Source of the DNA: Pararcticibacter amylolyticus
GTDB lineage: Bacteria; Bacteroidota; Bacteroidia; Sphingobacteriales; Sphingobacteriaceae
Assembly: GCF_003130405.1 (NCBI RefSeq)
Contig: NZ_QEAS01000005.1
Location: forward strand, 157,318-221,317
Length of the DNA: 64,000 nucleotides
Reading direction: 5' to 3'
The notes below the pieces were generated by a model. It searched no databases, was not told the origin of the DNA, and saw only the letters and a list, made by a program, of their open reading frames with translations. Both the position numbers and the translations under genes were made by a program. How positions within the stretch are numbered: position 1 is the stretch's first letter; each line of letters opens with the position of its first letter. Below, piece by piece: positions 9,439 to 24,583 of this stretch.

Positions 9439-9646
9439 TCGGGACGTATGCAGGGGGGAGGAATTCATTATTTAAGCGGGGTATAATGGTTTTTGGGGCT
9501 TATTACTATAATTTAAGCAGTTCAATATAGGAATTTCAGGGCTTGGTCGGATAATGGAAGGGAGTTAATTGTTAGGTTTTGTCCGGGCAGGCGGAACGGG
9601 GTGATACTATGTTTTTCGTTTGGGCATCTTTATAAACGGGCATTAA

Positions 9647-9680
9647 ATAAGGGAGGTAAGCACGATAAAACCTCCCTTAT
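9647..9680 (-). terminator. Terminator of the heme cluster
   Basis: An 11-bp perfect inverted repeat (ATAAGGGAGGT/ACCTCCCTTAT) with a 12-nt loop lies 25 bp beyond the stop of the heme oxygenase gene. On the minus strand the stem runs on into TTTAATG. It would end the long minus-strand heme transcript. Confidence 0.75.
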
Positions 9681-9704: not shown

Positions 9705-10265
9705 TCAGGCGGCTTTTACAGTGTCGAATGTATCTGCAAAGCAGCTGAACGTGTCATTTGCGGCCTTAATGGATACTTCTTCATCTTCAGGGGTTTGGGC
9801 GGTTTTGTTCATGACTTCCGTGAATAGAGCCCATTTTTCTCCGGTAGCTTCGCCATATCCTGAAAAGAAAGATACGCCTTGTGTAATTCCCATTTTTTCG
9901 AGCATCTTCACGATAATACTTCCGCCCATAATGGATCCTTCCATAACGTACAGGGCGCCGAGGGCTTGCAGTGTGTTGCCGATTTGCGGAATAATGGCGG
10001 GGGGAAGATCGTTTACATCTGCTCCCAGAGCTTCTATGTCAGCTTTTATAAAGGAAGAATTCCTGCGTTCTTTATAATCAGGAAGCAGTTCTTCCGTGAT
10101 GAACGGGCGGATCGCGTTCTCCACCCCACTAAAGTAAGCGTAAAAATATTTGAGAAGATCAGCATAGTCCTCATTGCTGTTAATCGTTTTTAAGCGGGTC
10201 ACGACCCTTTTTTCAAGATCCTGATGTGCTGTCCTGGTGGCTTCTTTGATTGATGTACTTAACAT
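9705..10265 (-). CDS. Biliverdin-producing heme oxygenase
   Basis: A 186-residue soluble, all-helical heme oxygenase that opens heme to biliverdin, CO and Fe2+. H14 in ATRTAHQDLEK is the expected proximal heme ligand. The distal-helix region LGALYVMEGSIMGGSII matches the family pattern LYVxEGSxxGG, and the length is typical of bacterial enzymes (180-220). It is the last gene of the minus-strand heme cluster, 30 bp after the S41 protease gene and just before a strong terminator. In this context it releases iron from imported heme. An electron donor is not encoded nearby. Confidence 0.92.
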   Translation of the reverse strand: MLSTSIKEATRTAHQDLEKRVVTRLKTINSNEDYADLLKYFYAYFSGVENAIRPFITEELLPDYKERRNSSFIKADIEALGADVNDLPPAIIPQIGNTLQALGALYVMEGSIMGGSIIVKMLEKMGITQGVSFFSGYGEATGEKWALFTEVMNKTAQTPEDEEVSIKAANDTFSCFADTFDTVKAA

Positions 10266-10295
10266 AGTGACTGGTATTGAATAATTTAATTATAG

Positions 10296-11549
10296 CTATT
10301 TTAATTTTAATCTGGTACTGATCATTCCGGCAGCGGACATCTTTACAGACGGAGCTGAAATTTGACTGAATGTTTTAATAACAGCAACCTGTTCTTTTTT
10401 GAATGATCTGCTACCTGCTTTTCTATTTATCAAAGCGAGTGTGGCGCTAAGGCATATTTCATCCGGATCACCTGATGCCGGTTCTCTTTCTCCTTTTACA
10501 TACAGGTCGGGATTCATCCCGCTAAAATAGCCGGACCACCCGGACGCATTTTTTATCAGGAAACCGGAAAACCATACGCTGTACTGATCAATATTAACGC
10601 CAAAAAAGCCAACCGGCTTTCCGTACGTCTTTTCGCCTACAATTGTTACCGGCAAATAGGGCTTCATACAACTGATTAACATTTCACTGGCAGAGGCCGT
10701 TGCTGTGGAAGTAATGAAATAAAGGTCGGTGATGCTTTCCAGACTTCCTTTTTTACTAAACCTGAAAGTATTTCCTGCTTCTGTGTAGTCCACATCGGCC
10801 AGTGTGGCATATCTTCCCTTGTAGATAACGGGTTTCCCGTTTTCATCGAGGTAAGGCTGATGTTTGAGAATTGCCGCTTTCCCGTTTTGCATCTGTGAAT
10901 TGAATTCTTCTGCGAACATGATCTTTCCGTCTAAAGAAGGCGGTGCGAGCAGGTTGGCAATGTATTCGGCGGCTTCAATAAAACCTCCGGAATTGTTTCT
11001 TAAATCAATGATCATATCATGCGGAGATGCCTGTGCGAACCGGGAAAAGATTGCATCGAGTTCCGCTTTACAACTGCTAAGCCTGGGAAAAGATCCGAAG
11101 GCGAGATATGCAATTTTATTTTCTCCTGCCCGGATAAGAGAGGCATGGAAGGCCGCCTGGTCTATATTCATACCGGCAACGCTGTTCCCGGGTGCCAGAG
11201 TCCCCTTCTCCAGATAAGAATATTTGGGGATACCCGCTGAATACGGGGTTTCGTATGGGTGGCCGGTAGCCGGATCGGTTGGCAACTGTGAAATATCAAA
11301 GAGTTCGGTTTTGAAAGCCTCGAGTTCATTTGCAAAGGTCCCATATCTGTTACGCGGGTTAAAAACGTCATAGGAAGGAAGCGCATGATTCCACAGATAG
11401 ATCTGCCTGGCATAAAGAAAAATTGAATCGAGGGTGAGCTCGGTTCGGCTTCCGCTACTTTCATCTTTTTTGCAGGATGCGTACAATAAGACCAGCAGCA
11501 GAATGCTGAAGGCAAGTTTTGCTGTACAGTTTTTGTCCCGCAGTTTCAT
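10296..11549 (-). CDS. S41-family (C-terminal processing) serine protease lipoprotein
   Basis: A 417-residue exported protease. The preferred start is the ATG at 11549, because it gives a clean lipoprotein signal (FSILLLVLLYASC, then KKDESS) and lies 4 nt after the preceding stop; the frame itself runs further upstream to 11690. The peptidase S41 core is at about 175-390, with DLRNNSGGFIEAAEYIANLL, then TATASASEMLISC with Ser286 as nucleophile and K311 in GEKTYGKPVG as general base. The 25-residue Ser-Lys spacing equals that of E. coli Prc. A PDZ domain, usual in CtpA/Prc, is not obvious. Placement between heme-binding lipoproteins and heme oxygenase suggests that it trims or degrades hemoproteins, or processes the HmuY-like lipoproteins; this is inference. 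Confidence 0.85.
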   Translation of the reverse strand: MKLRDKNCTAKLAFSILLLVLLYASCKKDESSGSRTELTLDSIFLYARQIYLWNHALPSYDVFNPRNRYGTFANELEAFKTELFDISQLPTDPATGHPYETPYSAGIPKYSYLEKGTLAPGNSVAGMNIDQAAFHASLIRAGENKIAYLAFGSFPRLSSCKAELDAIFSRFAQASPHDMIIDLRNNSGGFIEAAEYIANLLAPPSLDGKIMFAEEFNSQMQNGKAAILKHQPYLDENGKPVIYKGRYATLADVDYTEAGNTFRFSKKGSLESITDLYFITSTATASASEMLISCMKPYLPVTIVGEKTYGKPVGFFGVNIDQYSVWFSGFLIKNASGWSGYFSGMNPDLYVKGEREPASGDPDEICLSATLALINRKAGSRSFKKEQVAVIKTFSQISAPSVKMSAAGMISTRLKLK

Positions 11550-11553
11550 TTTA

Positions 11554-12555
11554 TTATTCTGTGATGGTGGTTGGGGCGCTGCTGTTTTGTTGCCACATAT
11601 ACATAAATATGCCGCCAGGTGATGCGTCATCTTCCTCTGTGTATAGCGTAACAGAGGCGATGTTGCCAGCTGGAATATCTGCGGGGACACGGAATTTGAG
11701 GGATGTTTGATCCTGACTTGTTACCGGGGCAGAATATATTCCATTTGAAGGGTCGCCGGTGATCATAATGTCTGCGCGGATAAATTTTCCATAGAAGTAT
11801 TTGCCGGCGGCCGCAGGCATTGAATATGTGAAACTTATTTCTGCTCCTTTCTTTATTGTTTGCCCTGCTTCGTTGAGTGAATAGGTGTCGTCTATATCTA
11901 AAACAAGGGGCTTCCCTATATGGTATGGACCCTTCACGGTAGTATTTCTGCCGCTTACCACTTTTACCTGATAATAGCCCGTGTCAAGCCTGCCGTCGAG
12001 GGGAATCTTTACCAGGATCCTGTTTGACCACAATTTGTCTGCATCCTTCAGGCTGACAGGAATATCGGTATTGGCGCTGTTAACCATATACAGCCTTGTC
12101 TGGGTTGTGTCGGGAATGAAGTATTGCCCGGAGAGGTTGATCGTACTTCCAAGGGTGAGAAAATCCGATCCTACGATTTCAAAAACCGGGGCCGGCTGGT
12201 TTATGGCCGTTTTCAGCTGATAGGTCTTTGTGCTTCCATCCTGCGCCGTTACGGTATAAACGGTGTTTTCATCAAAGGGTACCTCTGCTCCTGAAGCGGG
12301 GTTAATCTTAGCTCCTTCTGATATACTAATCACCGGCTTGATATGTCCGGGAACAGGTTGGAAGGGCGGCCAGTACAGAATAATGGAGTTCCCGGTTACC
12401 GATGCTTTCAGTTCGTTGCCTTCGGTATCGGTAATGATGAACTGTTCGATATTATTATATGGCATGCTGACATATTCTTTGCGGCAGGAGAGCAGGAACA
12501 TGCCTGATATAAGCAGTGATAAAAAGCAGAATTGATGGGGCGTATATTTTAACAT
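11554..12555 (-). CDS. TIG/DUF5018-like lipoprotein of the heme cluster
   Basis: A 333-residue lipoprotein (signal FLSLLISGMFLLSC, then RKEYVS). The N-terminal 120 residues resemble the DUF5018/cadherin-like sandwich of Bacteroidota surface proteins, ending in TVYTVTAQDGSTKTYQLK. Two Ig/TIG-like beta domains follow (about 125-215 and 215-325). It has the same architecture as the lipoprotein at 13538-14497, so the cluster holds two divergent copies. It lies 4 nt upstream of the S41 protease gene. A surface heme- or hemoprotein-binding role is possible from context but not shown by any motif. Confidence 0.65.
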   Translation of the reverse strand: MLKYTPHQFCFLSLLISGMFLLSCRKEYVSMPYNNIEQFIITDTEGNELKASVTGNSIILYWPPFQPVPGHIKPVISISEGAKINPASGAEVPFDENTVYTVTAQDGSTKTYQLKTAINQPAPVFEIVGSDFLTLGSTINLSGQYFIPDTTQTRLYMVNSANTDIPVSLKDADKLWSNRILVKIPLDGRLDTGYYQVKVVSGRNTTVKGPYHIGKPLVLDIDDTYSLNEAGQTIKKGAEISFTYSMPAAAGKYFYGKFIRADIMITGDPSNGIYSAPVTSQDQTSLKFRVPADIPAGNIASVTLYTEEDDASPGGIFMYMWQQNSSAPTTITE

Positions 12556-12643
12556 TTTTGAATGATTTACTGTATTCTATTAATCAGGGACAGGCTATTA
12601 AGCCTGTCCCTGCCGGGGCTGAATGGATACCGTGAGATTTTAA

Positions 12644-13273
12644 TTAAAGAACCTGACCACGGTTAAACCAGTAGACTCCCCTGTTATTAACAGCTACGCC
12701 CTGGCCTTCCGCGTCTGTAAACTGAACGGCATAGGTTACGCCGGTTGAATTGTTCCTCACGAAAATGATGAGGTTTTCAACAACTGCGATATCTCCTTCA
12801 GGCTGGTAGGTATACCATCCGGTGGCATTCAGATCTGCATTTGCAGGATCGGTAGTTGAACTTTCTCCAAGAGACGTTACGGGAACAGCATTTGTATAGT
12901 CACTCAGGCTAATGGATGACAATGCTGTAGTTGTATTCAAATATCTCAGGCTATATCCCGTGGCGGGATTTATAACCGAGTTATTATAGCTGTTGAAAAA
13001 CAAGTGGTGGGTGAAACCACTTGAGGAAGCCGACTGAGCACCGGTAACCAGGTTGGCATATACGGTTCCGTAGGTTGCCGGCCCTCCTGTTGGCGGAATT
13101 GGATTGCCCCAGTTGCCTACTAATGTATCAGCCGCAGGCGATACGGTCGCTTTTGCATTCTTTAAACTTAACGGAGAGCTTGTATCGTTTTCCTTTTTGC
13201 AGGAAGCCAGGACAAAAGATAAAGCGATCACCGCAAAGGTTATTCTTGCAAAGTTTCTGATGGTATTTTTCAT
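12644..13273 (-). CDS. HmuY-like heme-binding lipoprotein (divergent)
   Basis: A 209-residue lipoprotein (FAVIALSFVLASC, then KKEND). The C-terminal 60 residues (GWYTYQPEGDIAVVENLIIFVRN, then YAVQFTDAEGQG) follow the HmuY pattern of GW-aromatic-Y, a strand of the form xxxVRxxxG, and YAxxxxxxxxxG. It is shorter and more divergent than the two HmuY proteins encoded upstream, so the assignment rests partly on position. It sits between the two TIG/DUF5018-like lipoprotein genes, with 88 bp and 264 bp gaps on its sides. The 264-bp upstream gap (13274-13537) is GC-rich with no clear promoter. Confidence 0.6.
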   Translation of the reverse strand: MKNTIRNFARITFAVIALSFVLASCKKENDTSSPLSLKNAKATVSPAADTLVGNWGNPIPPTGGPATYGTVYANLVTGAQSASSSGFTHHLFFNSYNNSVINPATGYSLRYLNTTTALSSISLSDYTNAVPVTSLGESSTTDPANADLNATGWYTYQPEGDIAVVENLIIFVRNNSTGVTYAVQFTDAEGQGVAVNNRGVYWFNRGQVL

Positions 13274-13537
13274 AATGGACTTATTTTAATGTTGTTATTA
13301 AATTGAAGGTTGATATTCCGATTGCGTTTCTGAGCGTGATGAATGAGCGCGGGCATTGTCCGTCCGGTTATGGCGCCTTATACCGGCGGATGCTTTTATT
13401 CATTCAACCTGAGGTCGTTTTTACCCGGGCCAACGCAGCGGTCATGTAAAGACCAGCCCGGGCAAACTATTCAGCCCCGTGATAATAAACCTCATTTGTC
13501 TTAATATTCCATAGGCGATCTTTAATGTTTCTGTGAA

Positions 13538-14497
13538 CTATCTGGCTGTAACGGTCAGGCTCATCCTGCGGGTGCTTGCTGCCCAGTTACCGAACTGAAA
13601 TACAAAAGGTGAGCTGCTGAAAGATCCTGCGGGGAAGTTCTCCGGGATCTTTACTGTTATCTGCAGCCTGTCAAAATTATCTACCGGCAGATCGTAAGTG
13701 GTTCCCTGGACGGTGACCCTGACAGATTTAAGGTCTACAAACACATAACCCGGGGAGGGAGCGAAGCTGATTGTTCCGCCCTGGACACCGGTCTTGCCCT
13801 GCAACGCTACCTGGGGAGATTTGTAAACGATATGTACTGGTTTTTCCAGCGTTACCTGGTGCCCGAGGAAGCTGATCTTTACATCGTAATACCCGCTGTC
13901 GATGCTAGCAGGCAAGGTGCCCGCGGATAATATGTAGCTGTCTTCCGTGGTATTATTCGGATTGATATTAGCGGTGCTGAGATCGGTCTTAAATACCTGG
14001 CCCGACTTTTTGCTTACCAGGGTGGCGTCGAGACTTGCAATACTGGTGCTCTGAAGATTGCCGCGCAGTCCTCCAAGAGATGCGTTGGGAGAGGCTTCCG
14101 GGTTGCCGGTAGCCCAGTACAAATTGAGAGAAGGGGGATTCTGCTGTACAATTTCAAGTGAATAGACCCGCATGCTGCCATCTGTTCCGGTAACGGTATA
14201 TGTATGATCTTTCTCTGAAACGGCAACCGGCGCTGTTTCTCCACTCAATAATGCTCCCTGATCAAGGATAATTTCGGGCTGGATCACATCCAATGCATAA
14301 TAATAGGGAATGTAGACAGTGATGGTATTCTCTATATTGTCTATCGCTCCGTAAATAACAGTATCCCGGAGGTTGATCACTTTATATGTACTGATCCTGT
14401 TTTGGGGAATGGGGGCATAATCTACTGTTTTTTTGCAGGCTGAAAATATAAAGGCGGCTATCAGAGATATGAAGAAGAGGGTATATTTCGTTTTCAT
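13538..14497 (-). CDS. TIG/DUF5018-like lipoprotein of the heme cluster
   Basis: A 319-residue lipoprotein (LFFISLIAAFIFSAC, then KKTVDYAPIPQN). A DUF5018-like N-terminal sandwich ends DHTYTVTGTDGSMRVYSLEI and is followed by two beta-rich domains. It is the paralogue of the protein at 11554-12555. It lies 18 bp after the HmuY gene upstream on the same strand and is probably co-transcribed. The role is unknown; it is likely an outer-membrane-anchored accessory of heme capture. Confidence 0.65.
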   Translation of the reverse strand: MKTKYTLFFISLIAAFIFSACKKTVDYAPIPQNRISTYKVINLRDTVIYGAIDNIENTITVYIPYYYALDVIQPEIILDQGALLSGETAPVAVSEKDHTYTVTGTDGSMRVYSLEIVQQNPPSLNLYWATGNPEASPNASLGGLRGNLQSTSIASLDATLVSKKSGQVFKTDLSTANINPNNTTEDSYILSAGTLPASIDSGYYDVKISFLGHQVTLEKPVHIVYKSPQVALQGKTGVQGGTISFAPSPGYVFVDLKSVRVTVQGTTYDLPVDNFDRLQITVKIPENFPAGSFSSSPFVFQFGNWAASTRRMSLTVTAR

Positions 14498-14515
14498 TGA
14501 TTTAAATGAGAGAAG

Positions 14516-15301
14516 TTATTTTAATTCAAATTTTGTGCTTCCTGCCGGCACGATCACATATTCGAAGGTGAAATACATGTGGGGTGTATTCCTGAGCATC
14601 TTTTCCGGTGTATAGGAATCTTTATAGCAGCTGATCATTTTGATCTTCGCATAATTGCCTTTAGCTGTGCGCAGTACAACAGTGCGTATGGGGGCAGGTT
14701 GCCCATTGGCTTTAGTGAGGGCATTTCCCAATGCATATGCCACGTGCTGTTTGTCGAAGCTGCCGTCGCCCATGACCATGCCTCCGAAATCATAAAGATA
14801 CCAGCCAGTGCCCTCCCCGAAAGCGCCGGAATCATCTGTTCCAATCAGGCCCTTCGCTGTTTTGAATTCTGAATCAGCCGGAATACTGATCACTTCGTCA
14901 AAGGGCTTATCCAGGATCATAATTCCGCCTTTGCCAGGCCCTCCGCTACCGTAGTTTGAGCTGTTGCTACCATTGTTGCTGCCCATAAAGCTATTATAGA
15001 GGCCACTTAGAGAAAGGTCCCATAGGTTGGTCCTGGCGTAAGAAAGAGGCTGTTCTTTTTTGAATTCAAGGCTAAAGAGCACTTCCGTTTTTTCGGCGGT
15101 AGGGTTCTCATCATCTGTTTCCACTGCGAGATTTTCCACCCGCTGGAGTTTGTAAAATGGGACGGCAGTTCCTGTTCCTTCCTGCTCTTCCGCCTCTGCT
15201 CCGTCACCTTTAGAGCAGGCGGAGAAAATGAGAATGACAGCTGCAAGCAGTATTGGGATTGTTTGAAGGAGAGAGCTTTTTAGTCGTTTGGTCCGGTTCA
15301 T
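14516..15301 (-). CDS. HmuY-family heme-binding lipoprotein
   Basis: A 261-residue lipoprotein (ILLAAVILIFSAC, then SKGDGAEAEEQ). The core fits the HmuY family: LSYARTNLWDLSLSG at about 85-100, a low-complexity G/S/N insertion (about 104-125), GWYLYDFGG, VVLRTAKGNYAKIKMISCYK and a closing strand HMYFTFEYV. HmuY proteins are hemophore-like lipoproteins that take heme from host or environmental hemoproteins and pass it to a TonB receptor; which residues ligate heme here cannot be told without alignment. It is the second of two adjacent HmuY genes behind the TonB receptor, 18 bp downstream of the first. Confidence 0.82.
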   Translation of the reverse strand: MNRTKRLKSSLLQTIPILLAAVILIFSACSKGDGAEAEEQEGTGTAVPFYKLQRVENLAVETDDENPTAEKTEVLFSLEFKKEQPLSYARTNLWDLSLSGLYNSFMGSNNGSNSSNYGSGGPGKGGIMILDKPFDEVISIPADSEFKTAKGLIGTDDSGAFGEGTGWYLYDFGGMVMGDGSFDKQHVAYALGNALTKANGQPAPIRTVVLRTAKGNYAKIKMISCYKDSYTPEKMLRNTPHMYFTFEYVIVPAGSTKFELK

Positions 15302-15319
15302 CTTTGCTGATATTTGTAA

Positions 15320-16069
15320 TTATTGTTTGTTCGTATCCAGATTCCTGCTTCCGTCCTGTTGTACATAATATCTGAATGTCAGGTAGGGGGCAGGCCAGTA
15401 GAGGTCGGTTACAGCCGGCGGGTTTCCCTTGTACACATTCAGGAGTTCGAGCTTGGCATATTTTCCATCGGGAAGCTTTAGTACATAAGTCCTGTTTTTC
15501 AATGGTATGGCCAGGTGGGAGTTGAGACTATAGGTGAACCAGCCGGAAGAGTTGTCTCCGGAAGACCAGCCAATCTTCATAATGTCGCTGGCTTCAAATT
15601 CGGAGTCAGCCGGAGCGCCGGTTACTTCATTATAGGGCTTGTCGTATTTTACTACACCCGTGTTGCGGGCAGGTCCCTGATACCCGGGATTATATGGGTT
15701 TTCAGCGTTGTTCAGATATATTTCACTGTTGTACGGCCCTGTAAAGGCAATATCCCAGTCCCCGGTTTTTAAATACTGTGAGGAGTCGGAACCCGAGCGG
15801 ATCCAGATCTGTTTCTTATCCCTGAAGCGGAAGAGGAAGGTATGGAAAGGCCTTTTTTCTTTTCCGTCTACTCCGGCAGACATAGAAGCATTAGTATCAC
15901 CGGCCAGGTCGTATATCACTGTGCTTTTTCCGTCTTCCAGTAAAGGCTGGACGTCGTCTTTGCTGCATGAGATCATGGCGGTCAGCAACAGGGGCAACAA
16001 CAATCGTCTGCTGTGATGTGTTCTTATGCTCTGCCGGGTGTTGTTACTTCCTGTGTTCATTATCTTCAT
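15320..16069 (-). CDS. HmuY-family heme-binding lipoprotein
   Basis: A 249-residue lipoprotein. The start is uncertain: the frame opens at ATG 16093, with further ATGs at 16069 and 16060. The later ones give a shorter basic n-region before LLLPLLLTAMISC (then SKDDVQP). HmuY features are TGDWDIAFTGPYNSEIYLNN, GVVKYDKPYNEVTGAPADSEF, GWFTYSLNSHLAIP, YVLKLPDGKYAKLELLNVYK and the final strand YLTFRYYVQ. It follows the TonB receptor gene on the same strand, as hmuY does with its receptor gene elsewhere, although the gene order is reversed relative to Porphyromonas hmuYR. Confidence 0.85.
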   Translation of the reverse strand: MKIMNTGSNNTRQSIRTHHSRRLLLPLLLTAMISCSKDDVQPLLEDGKSTVIYDLAGDTNASMSAGVDGKEKRPFHTFLFRFRDKKQIWIRSGSDSSQYLKTGDWDIAFTGPYNSEIYLNNAENPYNPGYQGPARNTGVVKYDKPYNEVTGAPADSEFEASDIMKIGWSSGDNSSGWFTYSLNSHLAIPLKNRTYVLKLPDGKYAKLELLNVYKGNPPAVTDLYWPAPYLTFRYYVQQDGSRNLDTNKQ

Positions 16070-16121
16070 GTTCTTATTATATGGATATACCATTTGTCTG
16101 TATTTAATGCCGGTTGTTCTG

Positions 16122-18473
16122 TTACTTATAAAACCGGTAGGTTAATCCGCCAAGGATCACCCTGCCTGGTTGTCCGGGCATCAGTTGAGCGGTGTAGTCA
16201 AAGAGGTTATCTCCTGTAAGCTGTATGCTGAGGCGCTGATGAAGCAGTTTTTTCTCTGCTGAGGCATTGACAAGAAAGTATCCGTCGACAAATGTGTCGT
16301 AACGGTCGATGTAGTAATTGCCATTTGCGTCGCCGAAGGGATACTTTCCGCGGTAGTTTACCCGGAAAGAGAGGCCGAGGCCTGGTTTCCTGAAGTTGTA
16401 AAAGATCCTCAGGTTCCCCATATGCACGGAGCGGTTTTCAATTCCCCAGTAGTCAGAGGCTCTGGAAACTGTAGTCTGGCCTGTGGTGTTATTTCGTAGA
16501 CTGTTGTAAGGCCAGCTGCCATTTCGGATACTATCCTCTACGCTAAGGTCTTTAGCTCTCAGGTACTGATAGCCGAGTGAGATTTCAATGTCTTTTGAAG
16601 CCCGGAGAGACAAGGATGCGTCTGCGCCCTTGTTTACTACAACCGGAAGATTAATATAGGAATAGATCCATCTTCCTCCCGTTGCCGTTGCTACCTGGAA
16701 ACTGTTGATCTGGTTACTGATCCGGTGCCTGTAGGCACTCACTTCTATCTTTATTGATTTCAATGGTTCCATAACTGCTGTCAGGTTGAGCGTCTTGCTC
16801 CGCTCCGGCTGCAGTCCCCCCCGCAGTTTATTCAAGGTGTAATTACGAAGTTCGCTGATCTCTCCGGCTGCCTGCATTTCATTCAGAACCTGCCTGGCTA
16901 CATCTGCGCCCAGTACGGTATAGCCCACGAGGGCGTTTGTGAACATCTGGTATCTCTGTTTAAAGTCAGGTGTTTTAAACCCTGAACCCAGGGCTCCCTT
17001 TAGGGTCAGCCAGTGTAAAGGAGAATAACTTAACCCGATGCCTGGGTTTAGTCTGCCACCATAATTACTGTGCTGGTCGTACCGTGCGCCCCCCGTGATG
17101 CTGACAGCCTGAAAAGCTTTCCAGTCGCCCTGAAGATATATGAAGCCATTTTTCATGGCCTCGGTATCGCCAAAACGATGGTTGGTCATCTGCTCAACGG
17201 CAAAGCCGGCTCCTCCCGTGAGGTTGAGGTTATAGACCTTGTTATACGCAAATTGTTGTTCTGCACGGTGTACAGTCTGACGGAAAGTATTGGGGTCTGC
17301 GGTGCCGCCGTTTGGATATAGGATTTCCGATTTCCACCGGTAATGGGTGAGATAATAACGGCTCAGAGCCTGTAATCCGCTTTCATAGATGCTGTTCAAC
17401 GAAACTGATGCATTGACGTCGGCCTCATCCATGTGATCTTCATAGGTATTTGTGCCATAAGCTCTTGTCATCTGCGACTTGCGTAAGGCATACCTGCCGG
17501 TTGCACCCAGGGTACTTGCCTTGTTTACCCTGTACTTGACTCTGCCCTGCAGGGTGTAATTGTCATAGGGCGGGAGAGTAGTGCCGCTTGTCTGATAACG
17601 GGTATTGACGTTAAATCCATCTGTCCTGTAATAATTCGCCCCAATATTAAAGGTGCCATTGCCCGAAGAGAAGGGACTTTCAGCTTCGAGGGTGGCATCT
17701 GTCATGTTAAGGGAACCATAGCGCAATGATGCCAGTCCCTGCGGGGTATTAACGCCATGGCGGGTTATGATATTAATTGCCCCTCCCATGGCTTCGCTTC
17801 CGAAAAGGCAGGATGCTGCACCTTTGATGATCTCTATCCGTTCAATATTGGTAACGCTGATCCTCGAAAGGTCCAGGCTGCCTGAATTTCTGCCGATCAT
17901 GGGTTGTCCGTCTATCAGGATCATGATATATTCTGAAGAAAATCCCTGGACCTGTACGCCTGCCGAACGGTTGCCCCCGGCAAGGTCATTTACAATGGCA
18001 ATACCTGTTTGTTCTTTTAATATTTCGTCGAGCCTGCGGCTCCCCATTAGTTCGATTGTACGGCGGCTGATAACGGTAACCGGCATGGCGCTGAATTCAG
18101 CCCTGATCAGGTTGTCGGGATTGCTTTTGGAACCTGTAATACTTACTTCGTTCAGTTCGCTGCTGCCTGCGGGCAGCCGTACGTTCAGGGTCGCGGCTGA
18201 GCCGGCATTGACTGTGGTTTTGCCAATCCAGGTCTTATATCCGATGGAACTGATCTCTATGTTGTAGACACCTGCAAACAGGTCTTTCACAAGGAAATTT
18301 CCATCTTTGTCGCATTGCACCCGTATATGGTCGGGTTCGAGCAATACAGTTGCCCCGGCAAGCGGATGGCCGCTTTCGTTTTCGATGTGCCCCCGGAGGC
18401 TGCCCCTGCTTTGGGCCGCCGCACATACCGGTAATGTCAGCATGAACATTGACAGCATAATAATTTCTCTCAT
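16122..18473 (-). CDS. TonB-dependent outer-membrane receptor, probable heme receptor (HmuR-type)
   Basis: A 783-residue outer-membrane receptor counted from the ATG at 18473, which begins the signal peptide (MLSMFMLTLPVCAAAQS); the frame extends upstream to 18536. A CarboxypepD_reg-like beta domain (about 25-105) precedes the plug (about 115-230, with IERIEIIKGAASCLFGSEAM and GGAINIITR), then a 22-strand barrel ending in LGGLTYRFYK. It heads the minus-strand cluster whose later genes are HmuY proteins and a heme oxygenase, and it faces hmuTUV across a 373-bp divergent region holding a Fur-like box and a tandem repeat. Heme as substrate is therefore well supported by context. Confidence 0.88.
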   Translation of the reverse strand: MREIIMLSMFMLTLPVCAAAQSRGSLRGHIENESGHPLAGATVLLEPDHIRVQCDKDGNFLVKDLFAGVYNIEISSIGYKTWIGKTTVNAGSAATLNVRLPAGSSELNEVSITGSKSNPDNLIRAEFSAMPVTVISRRTIELMGSRRLDEILKEQTGIAIVNDLAGGNRSAGVQVQGFSSEYIMILIDGQPMIGRNSGSLDLSRISVTNIERIEIIKGAASCLFGSEAMGGAINIITRHGVNTPQGLASLRYGSLNMTDATLEAESPFSSGNGTFNIGANYYRTDGFNVNTRYQTSGTTLPPYDNYTLQGRVKYRVNKASTLGATGRYALRKSQMTRAYGTNTYEDHMDEADVNASVSLNSIYESGLQALSRYYLTHYRWKSEILYPNGGTADPNTFRQTVHRAEQQFAYNKVYNLNLTGGAGFAVEQMTNHRFGDTEAMKNGFIYLQGDWKAFQAVSITGGARYDQHSNYGGRLNPGIGLSYSPLHWLTLKGALGSGFKTPDFKQRYQMFTNALVGYTVLGADVARQVLNEMQAAGEISELRNYTLNKLRGGLQPERSKTLNLTAVMEPLKSIKIEVSAYRHRISNQINSFQVATATGGRWIYSYINLPVVVNKGADASLSLRASKDIEISLGYQYLRAKDLSVEDSIRNGSWPYNSLRNNTTGQTTVSRASDYWGIENRSVHMGNLRIFYNFRKPGLGLSFRVNYRGKYPFGDANGNYYIDRYDTFVDGYFLVNASAEKKLLHQRLSIQLTGDNLFDYTAQLMPGQPGRVILGGLTYRFYK

Positions 18474-18568: not shown

Positions 18569-18610
18569 AAATCCAAAGTATTTTGTATGAAATCCGAAGT
18601 ATTTTGTATG
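18569..18610. repeat. 21-bp tandem direct repeat in the divergent heme promoter region
   Basis: Two head-to-tail 21-bp units (18569-18589 and 18590-18610), AAATCCAAAGTATTTTGTATG and its copy with one change (CCGAAG for CCAAAG). The two-helical-turn period suggests a dimeric activator site. The likely reader is the AraC-family protein encoded at 21586-22560. The remainder of the 18474-18846 gap is AT-rich; a weak plus-strand promoter for hmuT (TTG, 20 nt, TTCTTTTG at 18795-18802) may be present. Confidence 0.75.
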
Positions 18611-18846
18611 AATTACGTGAATAAAAACACGGGTAATAATCTGTTGTAATGCTGTGATAAGAATTTTCTCATTTTTAAATTGTTGATTTTTAATGTTTTG
18701 TGTAAGTGTCAGGATCGGTGCCGGACCTTCGGTTTTCTTTTCTCAAAAAACATACAGAGATACCTGCTTTTTTGTAATTAGTCTTAATAACTACTTCTTT
18801 TGTGCCGTCCTCCTTTATTAAAAGAGGATTTACTGATACTTATTTC

Positions 18847-19692
18847 ATGAAGGTTTTCTTTTTTGCTGTATTCATTATATGGGGAAGCTCGTCTGTAAAG
18901 GCAGCAATGCCTCCTGAAAGGATTATTACACTAAGCGGAGCGCTGACGGAAACTGTTGATGCTCTTGGTTTAGGAAAGAATATTGTGGGTACCGATGTTA
19001 CGAGCACATACCCTGCGTCTTTGAGCAGGGTGCCGAAGGTGAGCCGCAACCGCTCTGTTTCGGCAGAAGGCTTAATGGCGTTTCGGCCCGGCCTGGTTCT
19101 GGCTCCTGAAGGAGATGTGCCGAAAGAGATACAATATCAGCTGAAGGAAGCCGGGATCCGGTTTGTCAGTATCAGGCAGGAATACTCGGTAAACGGGGCA
19201 CTTAACTTTATCCGAAAAGTAGCTGCAGCCTGCGGGGTTCAGGCAAGGGGAGAGACCCTGGCAAAACAAACCTTTGTCAGGGTTCAGGCAGCTCTTAGCA
19301 AGGTAAAGAGCAACCCGGTTACCAAAGGCAGGGTATTGTTTATTTATGCAAGGGGCAGCGGTACGATGCTTGTCGCCGGGAAGGGGAGCAGCCTGGACGC
19401 GATTATCAGGCTCGCCGGTGCCCGCAATGCTATTCAGGAATTTACCGATTTCAAACCTTACACAACTGAGGCCCTGGTAAAGGCAAACCCGGATGCGATT
19501 TTGATGTTCGACTTTGGCCTGAGCAGCCTGGGGGGCCGTCAGGCTGTCCTGGCGATGCCTGGCGTGTCTCTTACAAATGCCGGTAAAAGCAGCCGGGTGA
19601 TCGATATGGATGGTTCGTTGCTGACCAGTTTCAGTACCCGTCTTCCGGATGCAATTGCCGGATTGAATGAAAGGCTTACAGCAAGCAGGTGA
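18847..19692 (+). CDS. hmuT: Heme ABC transporter periplasmic binding protein
   Basis: A 281-residue periplasmic binding protein of the Peripla_BP_2 (helical-backbone) type. The ATG at 18847 begins a signal peptide (FFFAVFIIWGSSSVKA), so the upstream GTG at 18802 is rejected. Conserved blocks are PERIITLSGALTETVDALGLG, VGTDVTSTYPASL, LMAFRPGLVLA and MLVAGKGSSLDAIIRLAGA, the last typical of HmuT/ShuT. It is first in a tight operon with the permease gene (14-nt gap) and the ATPase gene (9-nt gap), divergent from the heme receptor cluster. Confidence 0.88.
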   Translation: MKVFFFAVFIIWGSSSVKAAMPPERIITLSGALTETVDALGLGKNIVGTDVTSTYPASLSRVPKVSRNRSVSAEGLMAFRPGLVLAPEGDVPKEIQYQLKEAGIRFVSIRQEYSVNGALNFIRKVAAACGVQARGETLAKQTFVRVQAALSKVKSNPVTKGRVLFIYARGSGTMLVAGKGSSLDAIIRLAGARNAIQEFTDFKPYTTEALVKANPDAILMFDFGLSSLGGRQAVLAMPGVSLTNAGKSSRVIDMDGSLLTSFSTRLPDAIAGLNERLTASR

Positions 19693-19706: not shown

Positions 19707-20747
19707 ATGAAGAAAACGTTTATTTATTCAAGCCTCATGGGGGCGCTTTTTATAGCTCTTGCTTCCTCGCTCGCTATGGGGGCAATGCAGGTGCCGTTGA
19801 GAGATGTATTGATTATACTGGCAAAATACGGGGGACTAATGAAAAACATTGCGGTGGATCCTTCATACGAGGGGGTGATTCATATAGTCAGGTTGCCGCG
19901 AGTCTTACTCGGCGTGCTGGTAGGGGCGGCTCTTGGGGTTTCGGGGGCGGCTATTCAGGGAATCTTCAGGAATCCGCTTGCAGAACCCGGACTGATCGGT
20001 ATCTCCGCAGGTGCGTCACTTTTTGCTGTTGCGATCATTGCCCTTGAAGTGTCGCTTCTGTCCGTGCTGAGCAACGTTCTGGGATATTATTTGCTCGCGA
20101 TCGGTGCATTCACGGGAGCCGGTATAGCGGCATTAACCGTTTATCAGCTTTCGAGAACTGAAGGCAGGCCGAACGTGGCCACTATGCTGCTTGCAGGTAT
20201 TGCAATCAACGCGCTGGCGGGAGCTCTGACGGGGCTTATTACCTATATGGCGGAGGAGCAGCAGCTCCGCTCGATCACTTTCTGGATGCTGGGAAGCCTG
20301 GGAGGCGCTACATGGCAGTCAGTAGGCTGTATTGCACCGTTCGTTCTGATCCCTGTCTTCATATTGCCGCTTCTGGGTAAGAGCCTCAATGCTTTTGCAC
20401 TTGGCGAAACGCAGGCCGATTTGCTGGGACTCCGCACGGACAGGGTAAAGCTCCAGGTCGTTCTGCTGGCTACCATGGCCGTTGGCGCATCTGTTGCAGT
20501 ATCGGGCATTATCGGGTTTGTAGGCTTACTCGTGCCGCACACGATACGGCTTATCGGCGGGGTGGATAATAAGTATGTTTTACCTGCTTCCGCTCTGCTG
20601 GGCGCACTTATCATGACCGTTGCCGACCTGATCGCGAGAACCCTGGCGGCACCTGTAGAGCTTCCTATCGGGGTAATTACAGCCTTGCTGGGCACCCCAA
20701 TGTTCCTGTATATCCTGGTGAGAGATAAGAAAAAGGTGTTATATTAA
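19707..20747 (+). CDS. hmuU: Heme ABC transporter permease (FecCD family)
   Basis: A 346-residue FecCD/BtuC-type permease with about ten membrane helices. The family blocks RLPRVLLGVLVGAALGVSGA, IQGIFRNPLAEPGLIGISAGA, FWMLGSLGGATW, GIIGFVGLLVPHTIRLI and the C-terminal ELPIGVITALLGTPMFLYIL are all intact. It forms the inner-membrane channel of HmuTUV. Membership of the heme rather than the ferric siderophore branch rests on neighbours: the HmuT-like protein, HmuY proteins and heme oxygenase. Confidence 0.9.
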   Translation: MKKTFIYSSLMGALFIALASSLAMGAMQVPLRDVLIILAKYGGLMKNIAVDPSYEGVIHIVRLPRVLLGVLVGAALGVSGAAIQGIFRNPLAEPGLIGISAGASLFAVAIIALEVSLLSVLSNVLGYYLLAIGAFTGAGIAALTVYQLSRTEGRPNVATMLLAGIAINALAGALTGLITYMAEEQQLRSITFWMLGSLGGATWQSVGCIAPFVLIPVFILPLLGKSLNAFALGETQADLLGLRTDRVKLQVVLLATMAVGASVAVSGIIGFVGLLVPHTIRLIGGVDNKYVLPASALLGALIMTVADLIARTLAAPVELPIGVITALLGTPMFLYILVRDKKKVLY

Positions 20748-20756
20748 AATCTCAAT

Positions 20757-21629
20757 ATGCTTACACTTCATTCAGTCGGTTATAGTATCCAGAACAGGGC
20801 GCTGCTTAAGGACATCAGTTTTCATCTGGGACAGGGTGAAATGATGGCTGTACTTGGCGCCAACGGAGCCGGGAAATCTACCCTTCTCCGGTTGTTAAGT
20901 GCCGAACGCAGCCCTTCCCGCGGTGTGATCCATTTTCGCCGGAAAGATCTCGCGGCTTACAGTCACCGCGAACTCGCATCCCTTCGTGCGGTCCTGAGCC
21001 AGCAAAACGCTCTGAGTATGCCCTTCCAGGTAGAAGAGGTGGTGATGATGGGACGCTATCCGCACTTCAGCCACCGTCCGGGCAGAAAAGACGCAGTAGC
21101 TGTTGCAGAAACAATGGAAGTCTGCGGTCTTAGTCACCTGGCCGACCGGAATGTTCTCACGCTGTCGGGCGGTGAGCAGCAACGTGTCCAGTTTGCGAGA
21201 GCGCTGGCGCAGATATGGGACCGGCCGCAATCCCTCATTCTGATGGATGAGCCGGTGGCAGCACTGGATCCCGAATACCAGCAGCAGCTGCTCGCTATTA
21301 CAAAAGCACTTTGCAGTCACGGGTTCACTTCTGTGGCGGTTTTACATGAGATCAACCTGGCGGCACAGTATGCCGACCGGATCCTGATGCTTAAAAACGG
21401 GAGAAAATGGCACGACGGTACTCCTGCTGAGGTATTAACCCCTTCGCATATTTATACCGTGTTTAATGCCGAGACAGAGGTGTTTATCAACCCCAAGACC
21501 CTGCGTCCGTATGTGATGCAAAAAGAAGTTAAACTAGATGCCTCCCGGTTTAATTCCCTGCTTCCACTGAAGCCGGCTGCATCTCTTACATTTTCAGATC
21601 GCTCGGAGCAATACCAAAATATTTCTTGA
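20757..21629 (+). CDS. hmuV: Heme ABC transporter ATP-binding protein
   Basis: A 290-residue ABC ATPase. Walker A is GANGAGKSTLLR, the Q-loop region is VLSQQNALSMPFQVEEVVMMGRYPH (typical of HmuV), the signature is LSGGEQQRVQFARAL, Walker B is LILMDEPVAALD, and the H-loop is VLHEINLAA. The chain is 25-30 residues longer than usual, ending in a tail (LPLKPAASLTFSDRSEQYQNIS). The last 44 bases of this tail overlap the 3' end of the convergent AraC-family gene, so the extension may be a late-stop run-on. Confidence 0.92.
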   Translation: MLTLHSVGYSIQNRALLKDISFHLGQGEMMAVLGANGAGKSTLLRLLSAERSPSRGVIHFRRKDLAAYSHRELASLRAVLSQQNALSMPFQVEEVVMMGRYPHFSHRPGRKDAVAVAETMEVCGLSHLADRNVLTLSGGEQQRVQFARALAQIWDRPQSLILMDEPVAALDPEYQQQLLAITKALCSHGFTSVAVLHEINLAAQYADRILMLKNGRKWHDGTPAEVLTPSHIYTVFNAETEVFINPKTLRPYVMQKEVKLDASRFNSLLPLKPAASLTFSDRSEQYQNIS

Positions 21630-22560
21630 AAGCTACACTGAAATTCTGCTGGTGATTGTATCCGGTCAGCTGCGCCACTTCAAAAATACTTTTACGTTCG
21701 TCGAGCAATAAATTGCGGGCTTTTTCCATCCTGACGCGGGTGAGGTAATCGTGAATAGTGACCGAAAAGTAATCCTTAAAGAGCTGTCTCAGCTTGAACT
21801 CGTTCATGGTCACTTCAGCTGCCAGTTCTTTTTGCGTAGGCGCTTCGGCATAATGTTCATCCAGTATGTTCCGTGCTTTCAGCAGCTTGTTGACATCCTC
21901 TTTAGGGTACAATTGTTCCTTTTTATCCTTACTATCCTGTAATTGCTCAAACTGGTATAAAAGCAGTTCTGAAATCTTCGACTCCGTATGGATTCTCCTG
22001 GCTTCACCGCTTCTGCGGGTATCTTTGAGGTCGCTGATCACCCGTTGCATTTCATAGGTGACGACCATATCATCCTTAGCAAAAGAAGTATACCGGCCTT
22101 CCATAATGGCCTGTACAAAATGTTCGTGTAAACTCGACGCGGGGTCTATCAGTTTGAAATAGAATTCTTTTGAGAGTACCATCAGGAAATAAGAGTATTC
22201 CAGTCCCGCCTGTAATTCATATTCCTCTGCTGAAGAAGGAATATACCGGACATTGTGCCTGCTGCGTCCGGGGCCCGGGTCTTTCTGTTTGCTTCCGGAA
22301 ATCTTCCGGTAAAAAACGAACTGACTGGTAATGGTTTCTCCTTTTACCTCTGTATGGATCTTTACCGGCCGGTCGAAACTCATATCCGAATGCAGCAGAA
22401 ACATTCCCCCGGTGGAGATCTGGTAGCTTTCCATTTTTACGGGAGTACGCTGCAAACCTGTCCGTTTTTCACTTATGGGACTGTTAGGGGCGCACTTATC
22501 AGGGACGTCTTCTATAAACAACCACTCGGGGAGTCCCACTATTTTGCTCTTTATGATCAT
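21586..22560 (-). CDS. AraC-family transcriptional regulator (PchR-like context)
   Basis: A 324-residue regulator. The C-terminal 100 residues form the two-HTH AraC domain: ARNILDEHYAEAPTQKELAA, then MNEFKLRQLFKDYF in the first HTH and FEVAQLTGYNHQQNFSVAFKKYFGIAPSDLK in the second. The N-terminal 210 residues would be the sensor domain, similar in layout to PchR/YbtA-type siderophore regulators. It lies tail to tail with hmuV, sharing 44 bp. Its promoter carries a Fur-like palindrome nearly identical to the one on the heme receptor promoter. It probably activates the heme genes when the cognate substrate is present and iron is low. Confidence 0.88.
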   Translation of the reverse strand: MIIKSKIVGLPEWLFIEDVPDKCAPNSPISEKRTGLQRTPVKMESYQISTGGMFLLHSDMSFDRPVKIHTEVKGETITSQFVFYRKISGSKQKDPGPGRSRHNVRYIPSSAEEYELQAGLEYSYFLMVLSKEFYFKLIDPASSLHEHFVQAIMEGRYTSFAKDDMVVTYEMQRVISDLKDTRRSGEARRIHTESKISELLLYQFEQLQDSKDKKEQLYPKEDVNKLLKARNILDEHYAEAPTQKELAAEVTMNEFKLRQLFKDYFSVTIHDYLTRVRMEKARNLLLDERKSIFEVAQLTGYNHQQNFSVAFKKYFGIAPSDLKM

Positions 22561-22684: not shown

Positions 22685-24583
22685 TCAGATCTTAGCCCAT
22701 GTCCATTTCACTCCGAAGGTGTACCATCTGCCCGGCATTGGAGATGCGCCGGCCTCCACGTATTCCTTGTTGGTTAAATTCGTGGCGTCAATATAGACTG
22801 TAAATGCTCCCGGAGTAACGGAAAGCCTGTTATCGATGAGCAGGTACCCTTTAGCAGCTGAGTTAATCCGTTCTGCGTACCGAAGGCCCAGGCTCATATT
22901 TAAGAGGTTGCGGTAGTTAAGGATGATGTTGCCGGTTATCTGGTGGCGCAGGCTGTTGATGGCATAATTGGAAATCAGGCCAGCAGCATTTTTGACGGAT
23001 ACCTCCGGCGATAGCCATGTATAGGAGGCCCGGGTGATCACTCCCCATTTCTGGCTGCTGTTAATTTCAGTAAAGCGATAATCTGCATTTAGCGAAAGTC
23101 CCCGGGTGTTAATCATTGTCGAGTTCATCGGCTGCCACGGATCTTCTATCCTGTATTTGATCCAGTCGATAAAGTTGCTGGTATGCCGGTAGAAGCCACT
23201 CAAAGATGCATTCAGACGCGATGATGACCATTTCACTCCGGCTTCTGACGACACCGAGTGTTCGGGCCGGAGTTCGCTGTTTCCGATATTCGTGGGGCCG
23301 GTATAATAAAGGTCGGTAAACGTGGGAAGCCGCTGGCCTGTCCCGACATTGGCAAATAACCTGACCTGATCCACAACCTGCCAGCCAGCGTCTATTCCTG
23401 GGAAGATTTCCCACCCGTAATCAGAATTGTAATTAAGATAGGCGCCGGCATTGACCAGTACCGAAGGAATGGCAGTAAAGCTGTATTCTGCTGAGATCCC
23501 CGCGTTGTTTCGTTTGCGGTCTCCAAGGTTATTGCTGTTGATCTGTTCACTGCGAAATTCAAATCCGGCGCCGATGGTTCCCAGCGAGGTATGGAACGTG
23601 TTGTTTAGTTCAGCGCCGGTCACGTCCGTTTTATGAATATTATGGAAAGCGTCGGGGTTTTGCCTGACGAAGATATAATCATCCTTATTGTGCCGGAAGC
23701 TCAGACGAGGTTTCATCACCCAACCTTCCGTCACCTGCCAGGTGCTGCTGACACCGCCGGTGAAAGTTGTGACGGCCTCTTTCGATTCCTTGTCTTTGGG
23801 GGCGGCGTAGAAGAAGCTGGCCCCGAAGTCGTTATTGATGAAGCCCGCCATGACATCGATCGTATTTCGGTCTGAAACTTTAAAAGAGCTTTGATAATAG
23901 GCCTTTGTGTTATTGAATGATGTATTATAACGATAGCCGGAGGCGGCGTCATTTGAAAAGGCGAGCATGTGTTTTGATGCCTTACCCGCCAAAGTGCCTC
24001 CGATCCGTATGCCATTTCCACCGTAGGGTGCCTGATTGGAAGTGTCTCTTTTAAAATTGCTTCCGGTATATGCGTTCGCGTAAAATTCTGTTTGATCAGG
24101 TTTTCTTGTGACAATGTTAATGGCTCCGTTCAGAGCGTTCAGCCCGAAGATTCTGGCTGCTGCCCCTTTCAGGATTTCTATACGCTCGATTTCATCGACC
24201 GACACCGGCAGGTTCATGGTGAGGTGCCCGGTCTGGGGATCATTTACTTTTACACCGTTCAGCAGAACCAGTGTCTGATCGAAAGTGCCGCCATCTATCC
24301 CGATATCTGTCTGAACGCCCCAGGGGCCTCTTTGCCTCACATCCAATCCGGCTACATAGGTTAATAATTCATTCAGTGATTTTACAGGCATCGTATTAAT
24401 GACAGCCCGGTCGAGCACCTGGATGTTGCGGTTCTGCTTTTTAAAAGGGATTTGGATCCGGCTCTCGCTCACCACGATTTCATTTAATGTCTGACCGTTT
24501 TCCTGGGCTATTGAAAGAATCGGAAACAGAAGGACGGATAGTAACCATAAAGGCATGTAATAAGCCTGGTATAAACTTTTCAT
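22685..24583 (-). CDS. TonB-dependent receptor, BtuB-like
   Basis: A 632-residue outer-membrane receptor with a signal peptide (LLSVLLFPILSIAQ) and no CarboxypepD_reg domain. The TonB-box region may be EIVVSES, the plug (about 50-160) contains VDEIERIEILKGAAARIFG and LNALNGAINIVTRKP, and the barrel ends PMPGRWYTFGVKWTWAKI. Size and layout recall BtuB/FepA-type receptors for small cofactors or siderophores. It is transcribed away from a MocR/PdxR-type regulator across a shared 114-bp region, which hints that its substrate is tied to that regulator's effector. It is separate from the heme operon. The substrate is unknown. Confidence 0.85.
   Translation of the reverse strand: MKSLYQAYYMPLWLLSVLLFPILSIAQENGQTLNEIVVSESRIQIPFKKQNRNIQVLDRAVINTMPVKSLNELLTYVAGLDVRQRGPWGVQTDIGIDGGTFDQTLVLLNGVKVNDPQTGHLTMNLPVSVDEIERIEILKGAAARIFGLNALNGAINIVTRKPDQTEFYANAYTGSNFKRDTSNQAPYGGNGIRIGGTLAGKASKHMLAFSNDAASGYRYNTSFNNTKAYYQSSFKVSDRNTIDVMAGFINNDFGASFFYAAPKDKESKEAVTTFTGGVSSTWQVTEGWVMKPRLSFRHNKDDYIFVRQNPDAFHNIHKTDVTGAELNNTFHTSLGTIGAGFEFRSEQINSNNLGDRKRNNAGISAEYSFTAIPSVLVNAGAYLNYNSDYGWEIFPGIDAGWQVVDQVRLFANVGTGQRLPTFTDLYYTGPTNIGNSELRPEHSVSSEAGVKWSSSRLNASLSGFYRHTSNFIDWIKYRIEDPWQPMNSTMINTRGLSLNADYRFTEINSSQKWGVITRASYTWLSPEVSVKNAAGLISNYAINSLRHQITGNIILNYRNLLNMSLGLRYAERINSAAKGYLLIDNRLSVTPGAFTVYIDATNLTNKEYVEAGASPMPGRWYTFGVKWTWAKI

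Follow-up and report, generated by a model that had tools for sequence, protein, structure and literature searches.

The window analyzed here is a stretch of 64,000 nucleotides from the soil-type bacterium Pararcticibacter amylolyticus (contig NZ_QEAS01000005.1). Positions 9705-18473 of its minus strand carry eight co-directional open reading frames (ORFs), with a TonB receptor first and a heme oxygenase last; the genes between them encode three HmuY-type lipoproteins (HmuY-A, HmuY-B and HmuY-C), two further lipoproteins termed X1 and X2, and a lipoprotein of the S41 peptidase family (Table 1). The locus can be described as a variant Hmu-type heme system equipped with an accessory protease, and we hold it to be very probably a heme-acquisition regulon of Sphingobacteriaceae. 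It is fairly probable that the S41 protein is an active accessory of this regulon, and the complete explanation, a heme regulon whose S41 surface accessory trims lipoproteins, has about an even chance of being correct.

Heme genes, transcript signals and the divergent arm

HmuY-A and HmuY-B scored 26.2 and 26.0 bits against the Pfam HmuY family (PF14064) by hmmscan, falling roughly 1 bit short of the curated threshold of 27 (E 1e-5), and one of the two reached 27.5 bits when scanned together with its in-frame neighbours; their relatedness to each other was clear (hhalign E 9e-38). HmuY-C gave no Pfam match and was recognized by a profile match to HmuY-A (hhalign 97.4%, E 1e-11). Upon PDB sequence search, HmuY-A matched only 8b6a (E 2e-4), and HmuY-B matched 8b6a (E 6e-9) and 8b61 (E 0.29). 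Of 105 distinct HmuY-A proteins, 102 have His193 and the other three have Lys; the aligned His186 of HmuY-B was kept in 87 of 87, a conservation that is suggestive and compatible with heme binding. The heme oxygenase, for which the genome holds a single PF01126 match (54.3 bits, cut-off 23), has a His14 that we take to be the proximal His by family motif; this residue and the GSIMGG motif recurred in at least 95% of 83 proteins, and His684 of the receptor was kept in at least 97% of 112. Given the lone heme oxygenase and the conserved His of HmuY-A, HmuY-B, the heme oxygenase and the receptor, heme is the probable ligand of the locus. No match to the CobN/HmuS family (PF02514) was found in the genome (97.7% complete), so iron is probably freed by the one heme oxygenase present.

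Profile comparison shows X1 and X2 to be paralogs (hhalign 99.8%, E 3e-29). DUF5018 was touched at E ≤0.01 by 10 of 11 X2 proteins, that of the window staying below the curated cut-off, and by 2 of 12 X1 proteins, the X1 of the window having no Pfam match. The AlphaFold2 model of X1 was rich in beta-strands, with a predicted local distance difference test (pLDDT) of 91, and its structural matches, mostly Ig-type proteins and including SGBP-B, had TMq ≤0.27 among the 50 listed and point to no ligand. Twelve loci, mostly of Flavobacterium, hold one further unassigned lipoprotein cluster between X1 and X2 (L085, L091, L100, L106, L109, L123, L134, L136, L143, L147, L148 and L153; e.g. L148:12485-13276), of which the single member scanned (L148) had no Pfam match. 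A second type of operon was also seen, in which the heme oxygenase leads, the HmuY and X proteins are longer (~290-490 amino acids) and one or two receptors occur within the examined stretch (L084, L140, L154, L156, L171 and L174-L176).

Five of the intergenic gaps measured 4-30 bp, that between X1 and HmuY-C 264 bp (13274-13537) and that between HmuY-C and X2 88 bp; X1-HmuY-C gaps of ~250-270 bp were also present in L047 and L049. The terminator-like hairpin after the heme oxygenase was missed by a scan allowing loops of at most 8 nt, which its loop exceeds, and another strong hairpin separates HmuY-C from X2. Because of the 264-bp gap, the 88-bp gap and this second hairpin, co-transcription of all eight genes is rated as likely only. 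The second hairpin is possibly a partial terminator or an RNA end and, together with the gap before HmuY-C, suggests that the RNA level of HmuY-C may be separate. A scan for sigma-70 promoters was uninformative (19 sites vs 21.7 expected).

The operon unit extends to the divergent heme/B12-type ATP-binding cassette (ABC) transporter and the AraC regulator. When 140 loci were collapsed on the basis of their HmuY-A sequence, the window and G015/L054 (a partial HmuY-A) being left out, 109 distinct operons remained; all 109 had the receptor, 84 the binding protein, 79 the AraC gene and 78 the heme oxygenase; such counts of operon content are lower bounds, the loci ending at ~20 kb. On the far side of the AraC gene there is another TonB receptor (22685-24583). 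The promoter between the two arms contains the copies of a 21-bp tandem direct repeat; nowhere else in the genome was there a match with fewer than three mismatches, and none of 100 shuffles gave two matches; two further genome matches had three mismatches, and a reversed-pattern control gave no fewer. When a 20-nt direct repeat with at least 15 matches and a spacing of 15-30 was required, 41 of 81 non-redundant promoters (window included) carried such a repeat, about 33.5 of the 41 (ties split) at exactly 21 bp, and 40 showed none, the 81 sequences being related and thus not independent trials. Markov-type shuffles hit the repeat score in 217 of 1620 cases at any spacing and 0.65 times per set at spacing 21. 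The 21-bp repeat is conserved and operator-like, and its simplest reading is a putative AraC site.

Several claims of a preliminary description of this DNA were borne out by these results, namely the eight co-directional genes from TonB receptor to heme oxygenase, the two HmuY proteins and a third HmuY-like one, the two paralogous lipoproteins, the strong terminator, and an S41 lipoprotein with a Ser286-Lys311 dyad (see below); the proposed heme capture, import and degradation are supported by the gene content. Its eight-gene unit stood as far as the genes present are concerned, and had missed the ABC transporter, the AraC gene and the shared 21-bp repeat.

Table 1. Features of the heme locus and its divergent arm in the window (MFE, minimum free energy)
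Feature	Position	Strand	Evidence
TonB receptor	16122..18473	-	Pfam plug and barrel above cut-off; counterpart in 109/109 distinct HmuY-A operons
HmuY-A, hemophore-like lipoprotein	15320..16093	-	Pfam HmuY E 1e-5
HmuY-B, second hemophore-like lipoprotein	14516..15301	-	Pfam HmuY E 1e-5; hhalign to HmuY-A
X1, Ig-type lipoprotein, X2 paralog	13538..14497	-	hhalign X1/X2; AlphaFold2 model
HmuY-C, diverged third HmuY-like lipoprotein	12644..13273	-	hhalign to HmuY-A
Strong hairpin between HmuY-C and X2	12585..12612	-	z -4.4; 0/200 shuffles equally stable
X2, DUF5018-like lipoprotein	11554..12555	-	DUF5018 touched by 10/11 members; window copy below cut-off
S41 lipoprotein protease (predicted), without PDZ domain	10296..11549	-	Pfam Peptidase_S41; Ser286/Lys311; AlphaFold2 model
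Heme oxygenase	9705..10265	-	sole PF01126 match of genome; His14 and GSIMGG conserved
Terminator-like hairpin 3' of heme oxygenase	9646..9680	-	MFE -19.2 kcal/mol, z -4.0
21-bp tandem direct repeat, divergent promoter, candidate AraC operator	18569..18609	-	shuffles, genome scan, relatives
Periplasmic binding protein, heme/B12-type ABC transporter	18802..19692	+	Pfam Peripla_BP_2 103 bits; IsdE-/BtuF-like in NCBIfam, below cut-offs
FecCD-type permease	19707..20747	+	Pfam 297 bits
ABC transporter ATPase	20757..21629	+	Pfam ABC_tran 96.8 bits
AraC-family regulator	21586..22560	-	Pfam HTH_18 and HTH_AraC above cut-off; co-located in 79/109 distinct operons

Sequence and fold of the S41 lipoprotein

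The S41 gene starts 4 bp past the end of X2 and encodes 417 amino acids counted from an ATG, a longer GTG start being given in the ORF list. The protein scored 56.9 bits against Pfam Peptidase_S41 (PF03572, cut-off 24) and did not reach the cut-offs of the Ctp/Prc models of NCBIfam (TIGR00225 subfamily, NF058627 and others; 46.2 vs 218.6 and 111.9 vs 455 bits). The catalytic Ser-Lys pair of S41 enzymes is 25 residues apart, and the window copy has the lipobox Cys26 and the dyad Ser286/Lys311. Scoring of 51 distinct S41 proteins showed Cys26 and Ser286 in all 51 and Lys311 in 50; the one without Lys311 (L079) lies outside heme operons, and every operon-linked scored copy has an intact dyad. In many copies Cys26 is followed by a stretch of Lys and acidic residues, which resembles a surface-export signal of Bacteroidota, and from these two features we infer that the S41 protein would be located at the cell surface. 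No PDZ match was obtained with Pfam in the window S41 protein, and alignment showed the PDZ region to be absent from this short form. A PDZ-length insert (115-138 residues) was found in 6 of the 51 aligned proteins, the window's not among them, and L076, L077 and the named locus L148 are heme operons of like kind that carry a longer S41 protein with such an insert.

The AlphaFold2 model of the S41 protein (mean pLDDT 79) placed helices at the N-terminus ahead of the catalytic core; pLDDT was mostly near or above 85 in the core and below 50 in the last 38 residues. This C-terminus (window 10296-10420) is formed by a disordered linker and then, in many copies, a basic tail (like RLKLK). The closest structure was 3k50, a putative S41 protease of Bacteroides fragilis (Z 25.0, 275 residues, root mean square deviation 4.2), and further matches were IRBP modules (Z 20.5-21.0, 272-279 residues), 4l8k (Z 19.0) and 8vcb (Z 18.2), with 4l8k_A (315 residues) matching model residues 34-381 and 8vcb_A (312 residues) residues 34-376. 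The structures 3k50, 4l8k and 8vcb have the same fold as the window S41 protein at a sequence identity of 16-22%. IRBP modules are not known to carry a PDZ domain, and 4l8k and 8vcb appear to be without one as judged by chain length; PDZ-less S41 folds are therefore apparently already known.

The likeness to the retinoid-binding IRBP modules would fit a binding protein of related fold without protease function. We consider this very improbable, as Ser286 is kept in 51 of 51 proteins and Lys311 in 50 of 51, and as 3k50, the closest structure of all, carries the annotation of an S41 protease; the conserved dyad makes a dead enzyme, like a binding protein, unlikely.

Distribution and phylogeny of the S41 gene

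In 251 Sphingobacteriaceae genomes, the matches listed comprised 36 near full-length copies of the short S41 protein in 33 genomes, those other than the window's at 45-59% identity, together with many longer S41 proteins (mostly 500-600 amino acids) that matched mostly from residue ~134 onward because the PDZ region is absent from the short form. Twenty-five of the 36 listed copies lie in HmuY-A heme operons (window included) and one in a partial operon (L042); the others adjoin MACPF genes (7), overlap a diheme peroxidase gene (1, L070) or lie elsewhere (2). Conversely, 27 of the 62 HmuY-A operons of these genomes (window included; 61 places with more than 280 bits and one partial) carried S41 inside the examined 20 kb. 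From the 133 named loci found, the 80 best were taken, and S41 was present in 24 of 80, all titled Sphingobacteriaceae or genera of that family, or in 24 of 75 when five with less than 9.5 kb downstream were removed. The S41 of L061/L157 was counted despite a sigma-factor gene between S41 and the heme oxygenase, and a distant S41 of L100 (94 bits, 9 kb downstream) fell below the threshold and was not counted. Among 395 genomes of the class, 14 had an S41 match at E ≤1e-40, all of the same family, with at most four candidates scored per genome. The five other genomes of the genus of the window gave no HmuY-A match at E 1e-15, and at least two of them (G066 and G076) had a PF14064 match of a different kind. 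A lack of S41-HmuY linkage in relatives had been named beforehand among the findings that would refute the preliminary description, which withstood this test with counts of 27/62 and 24/80; the link between the protease and HmuY is genuine.

Several observations weigh against the explanation given above, a heme regulon with an S41 surface accessory that trims lipoproteins. S41 was lacking inside the examined 20 kb in 35 of the 62 HmuY-A operons, and at least six of the S41-less operons keep X1, HmuY-C and X2 (L165, L167, L186, L189, L190 and L191), so that the full lipoprotein set exists without S41. At the threshold used, S41 was found in 0 of 24 loci titled Flavobacteriaceae (L099 being short). 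The HmuY-A tree, a quick tree with long branches from whose S41 states the five loci with less than 9.5 kb downstream were left out, requires 15 changes of S41 state, at least six of them forced by well-supported branches. The 264-bp gap upstream of HmuY-C leaves room for a separate transcript. Finally, at the position of the Gln that follows the catalytic Lys by four residues in Helicobacter pylori CtpA, Phe was found in 46 of 51 S41 proteins; the residues S300/K325/Q329 of CtpA are those named in the title of structure 9ku3, and because this Gln is replaced, S41 activity is presumed from the dyad alone.

As 35 of 62 operons are without S41, the protease as an obligatory part of the pathway was rejected. 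The self-contained pathway of the preliminary description is not supported in that form, 10 of the 36 listed short copies also lying outside heme operons and 7 of these beside MACPF genes; a statement that S41 is required for heme release is not supported. From the 15 changes on the HmuY-A tree, S41 is a recurrent optional accessory that was repeatedly gained or lost.

One MACPF neighbour was scanned for each of the seven MACPF-adjacent S41 copies (L043, L045, L046, L048, L055, L058 and L073; genes at ~9.3-10.7 kb of each locus), and all seven matched PF01823 above the cut-off. Six of these MACPF proteins have a C-terminal DUF5648, and the S41 copy of L073 is broken. In an S41 tree of 49 rows, which included 7 of the 24 named S41 proteins and, on a very long branch, the distant S41 of L100, the six unbroken MACPF-linked copies formed one group (95/94) that was joined (95/91) to six heme-operon copies; the tree is unrooted, its bootstrap unsettled, and L073 was omitted. 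A single recruitment from the heme operon would be the simplest reading. A rival view is that S41 is a mobile surface-protease cassette on the heme promoter, serving general peptide scavenging or self-protection with no specific heme role. Repeated gain and loss would fit such a cassette, as would the 10 of 36 listed short copies outside full or partial heme operons; however, 25 of the 36 are in HmuY-A operons and one in a partial one, the MACPF-linked copies group with heme-linked ones, and the dyad is strictly conserved, so we regard this view as unlikely.

A lipoprotein of the CCP_MauG family (Pfam 133 bits in the member scanned) was found in 11 of 36 S41-bearing operons vs 3 of 73 without S41, as searched with a profile built from six loci, three of them S41-bearing (L101, L107 and L131). 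This diheme CCP_MauG-type gene sits between X2 and S41 or the heme oxygenase in Sphingobacterium and relatives (e.g. L107:15135-16274), with equivalents in L051, L052, L065-L069, L087, L093, L096, L101, L103, L112 and L131; the frames in L068, L096 and L103 are shorter and may be damaged or mis-called. The association of HmuY-C with S41 (29/36 vs 10/73) was not used, the HmuY-C profile having been built from S41-bearing loci, and the counts of X1 and X2 share this bias.

Proposed function and comparison with known systems

According to the proposed mechanism, surface HmuY-type lipoproteins would capture heme, the TonB receptor would import it, the divergent ABC transporter would move it across the inner membrane, and iron would be freed by the lone heme oxygenase, with the AraC-type regulator probably controlling both arms via the 21-bp tandem repeat. 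The PDZ-less S41 protein would be an active, ungated Ser-Lys protease at the cell surface and would trim co-made surface lipoproteins, for example by detaching hemophores from their lipid anchor, as reported for the gingipain Kgp acting on HmuY in P. gingivalis. Heme as ligand, the surface location, AraC binding, and the activity and substrate of S41 are all predicted here.

S41 enzymes mostly process the tails of specific or unfolded proteins, and the S41 protein of the locus may trim surface lipoproteins or hemoproteins. That lipoprotein trimming is its main job is put forward tentatively, at somewhat less than an even chance; it is favoured because the S41 clade also stands beside other exported lipoprotein genes (MACPF), a sign of a common surface-processing role, and because tails are the usual target of S41 enzymes. 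It is further supported by the reported precedent of the gingipain Kgp (PMC10100897). An explanation nearly as good, doubtful as it is in itself, is that S41, as the preliminary description had proposed, liberates heme by digesting foreign hemoproteins at the surface so that the HmuY proteins take it; in some relatives a surface diheme peroxidase beside S41 might first oxidize ferrous heme proteins, and MACPF pore-formers of other loci might supply lysed prey. The linkage of S41 to the heme operon, the enrichment of the CCP_MauG lipoprotein and the MACPF neighbours of the same protease clade agree with it, and gingipains are reported to degrade hemoproteins and to join in the hemoglobin oxidation that eases transfer to HmuY (PMC10100897). 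Most operons, however, are without S41, and the peroxidase link is contributed mainly by loci closely related to each other, in three of which (L068, L096 and L103) the frames may be damaged. Moreover, known S41 enzymes mostly act on tails and not on folded hemoglobin.

A wider possibility, which we consider improbable, is a detachable surface kit with which Sphingobacteriaceae would dismantle hemoproteins, in which a PDZ-less S41 born in the heme operon was joined by a surface diheme peroxidase oxidizing heme iron in some species and moved to MACPF loci in others. If true, lysis of neighbouring cells would be coupled to the digestion of their hemoproteins, and the kit would be an operon-encoded counterpart of the gingipains that serve HmuY in Porphyromonas. 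A literature search joining 'MACPF' and 'S41 peptidase' found no match. Under the preferred reading of S41 as an accessory that trims lipoproteins, or under digestion, S41 may help to free heme or to release heme-catching proteins, and as the protease is optional, with natural S41-plus and S41-minus operons, the aid of proteolysis to hemophores becomes directly testable in soil bacteria.

Most knowledge of HmuY systems comes from anaerobes of the mouth and gut, and some from Flavobacterium species. In the hmuYRSTUV systems of Porphyromonas gingivalis and Bacteroides thetaiotaomicron, an HmuY-family lipoprotein stands beside a TonB heme receptor (PMC12583661 and PMC10434189), as in the window, and HmuS removes iron anaerobically (PMC12583661). 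The window differs in having a heme oxygenase and no match to the HmuS dechelatase, and in its FecCD-type ABC transporter, three HmuY-type proteins, extra lipoproteins and S41; neither the eight genes nor the divergent ABC genes gave a Pfam match to two further hmuYRSTUV membrane proteins, MotA/TolQ/ExbB and DUF2149. An S41 peptidase of P. gingivalis is reported to belong to an iron-responsive group with flavodoxin and not to the hmu group (PMC10434189). The hfpR-DoxX-hfpY transcript of Flavobacterium psychrophilum, induced by iron scarcity, likewise combines a TonB receptor with an HmuY-like hemophore, but consists of three genes, none of them for S41, a heme oxygenase or an extra lipoprotein (PMC9331221). 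In the hemO locus of Acinetobacter baumannii, a hemophore and a heme-degrading enzyme occur together as in the window, whereas that hemophore is reportedly Slam-dependent and not HmuY (PMC8560813).

A parallel to the S41 protein is offered by the gingipains of P. gingivalis, unlinked cysteine proteases that are reported to release HmuY from its lipid anchor and to degrade hemoproteins (PMC10100897). Both jobs being reported there, a protease in the HmuY pathway is not a new idea, and in this respect the preliminary description, which had taken the use of an S41 enzyme as undescribed, has a precedent. For an operon-encoded S41 enzyme its claim stands only within the literature matches listed (titles and abstract starts, few subscription journals covered), which gave no description of S41-HmuY linkage, and such an enzyme in an HmuY system may be new. 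In both cases surface proteolysis would serve an HmuY heme system, as proposed here for S41; the proteases of P. gingivalis are of cysteine type and encoded outside the hmu operon, whereas the window holds an operon-encoded S41 lipoprotein, in a version of the HmuY system with a heme oxygenase, a linked regulator, a candidate operator and an optional protease.

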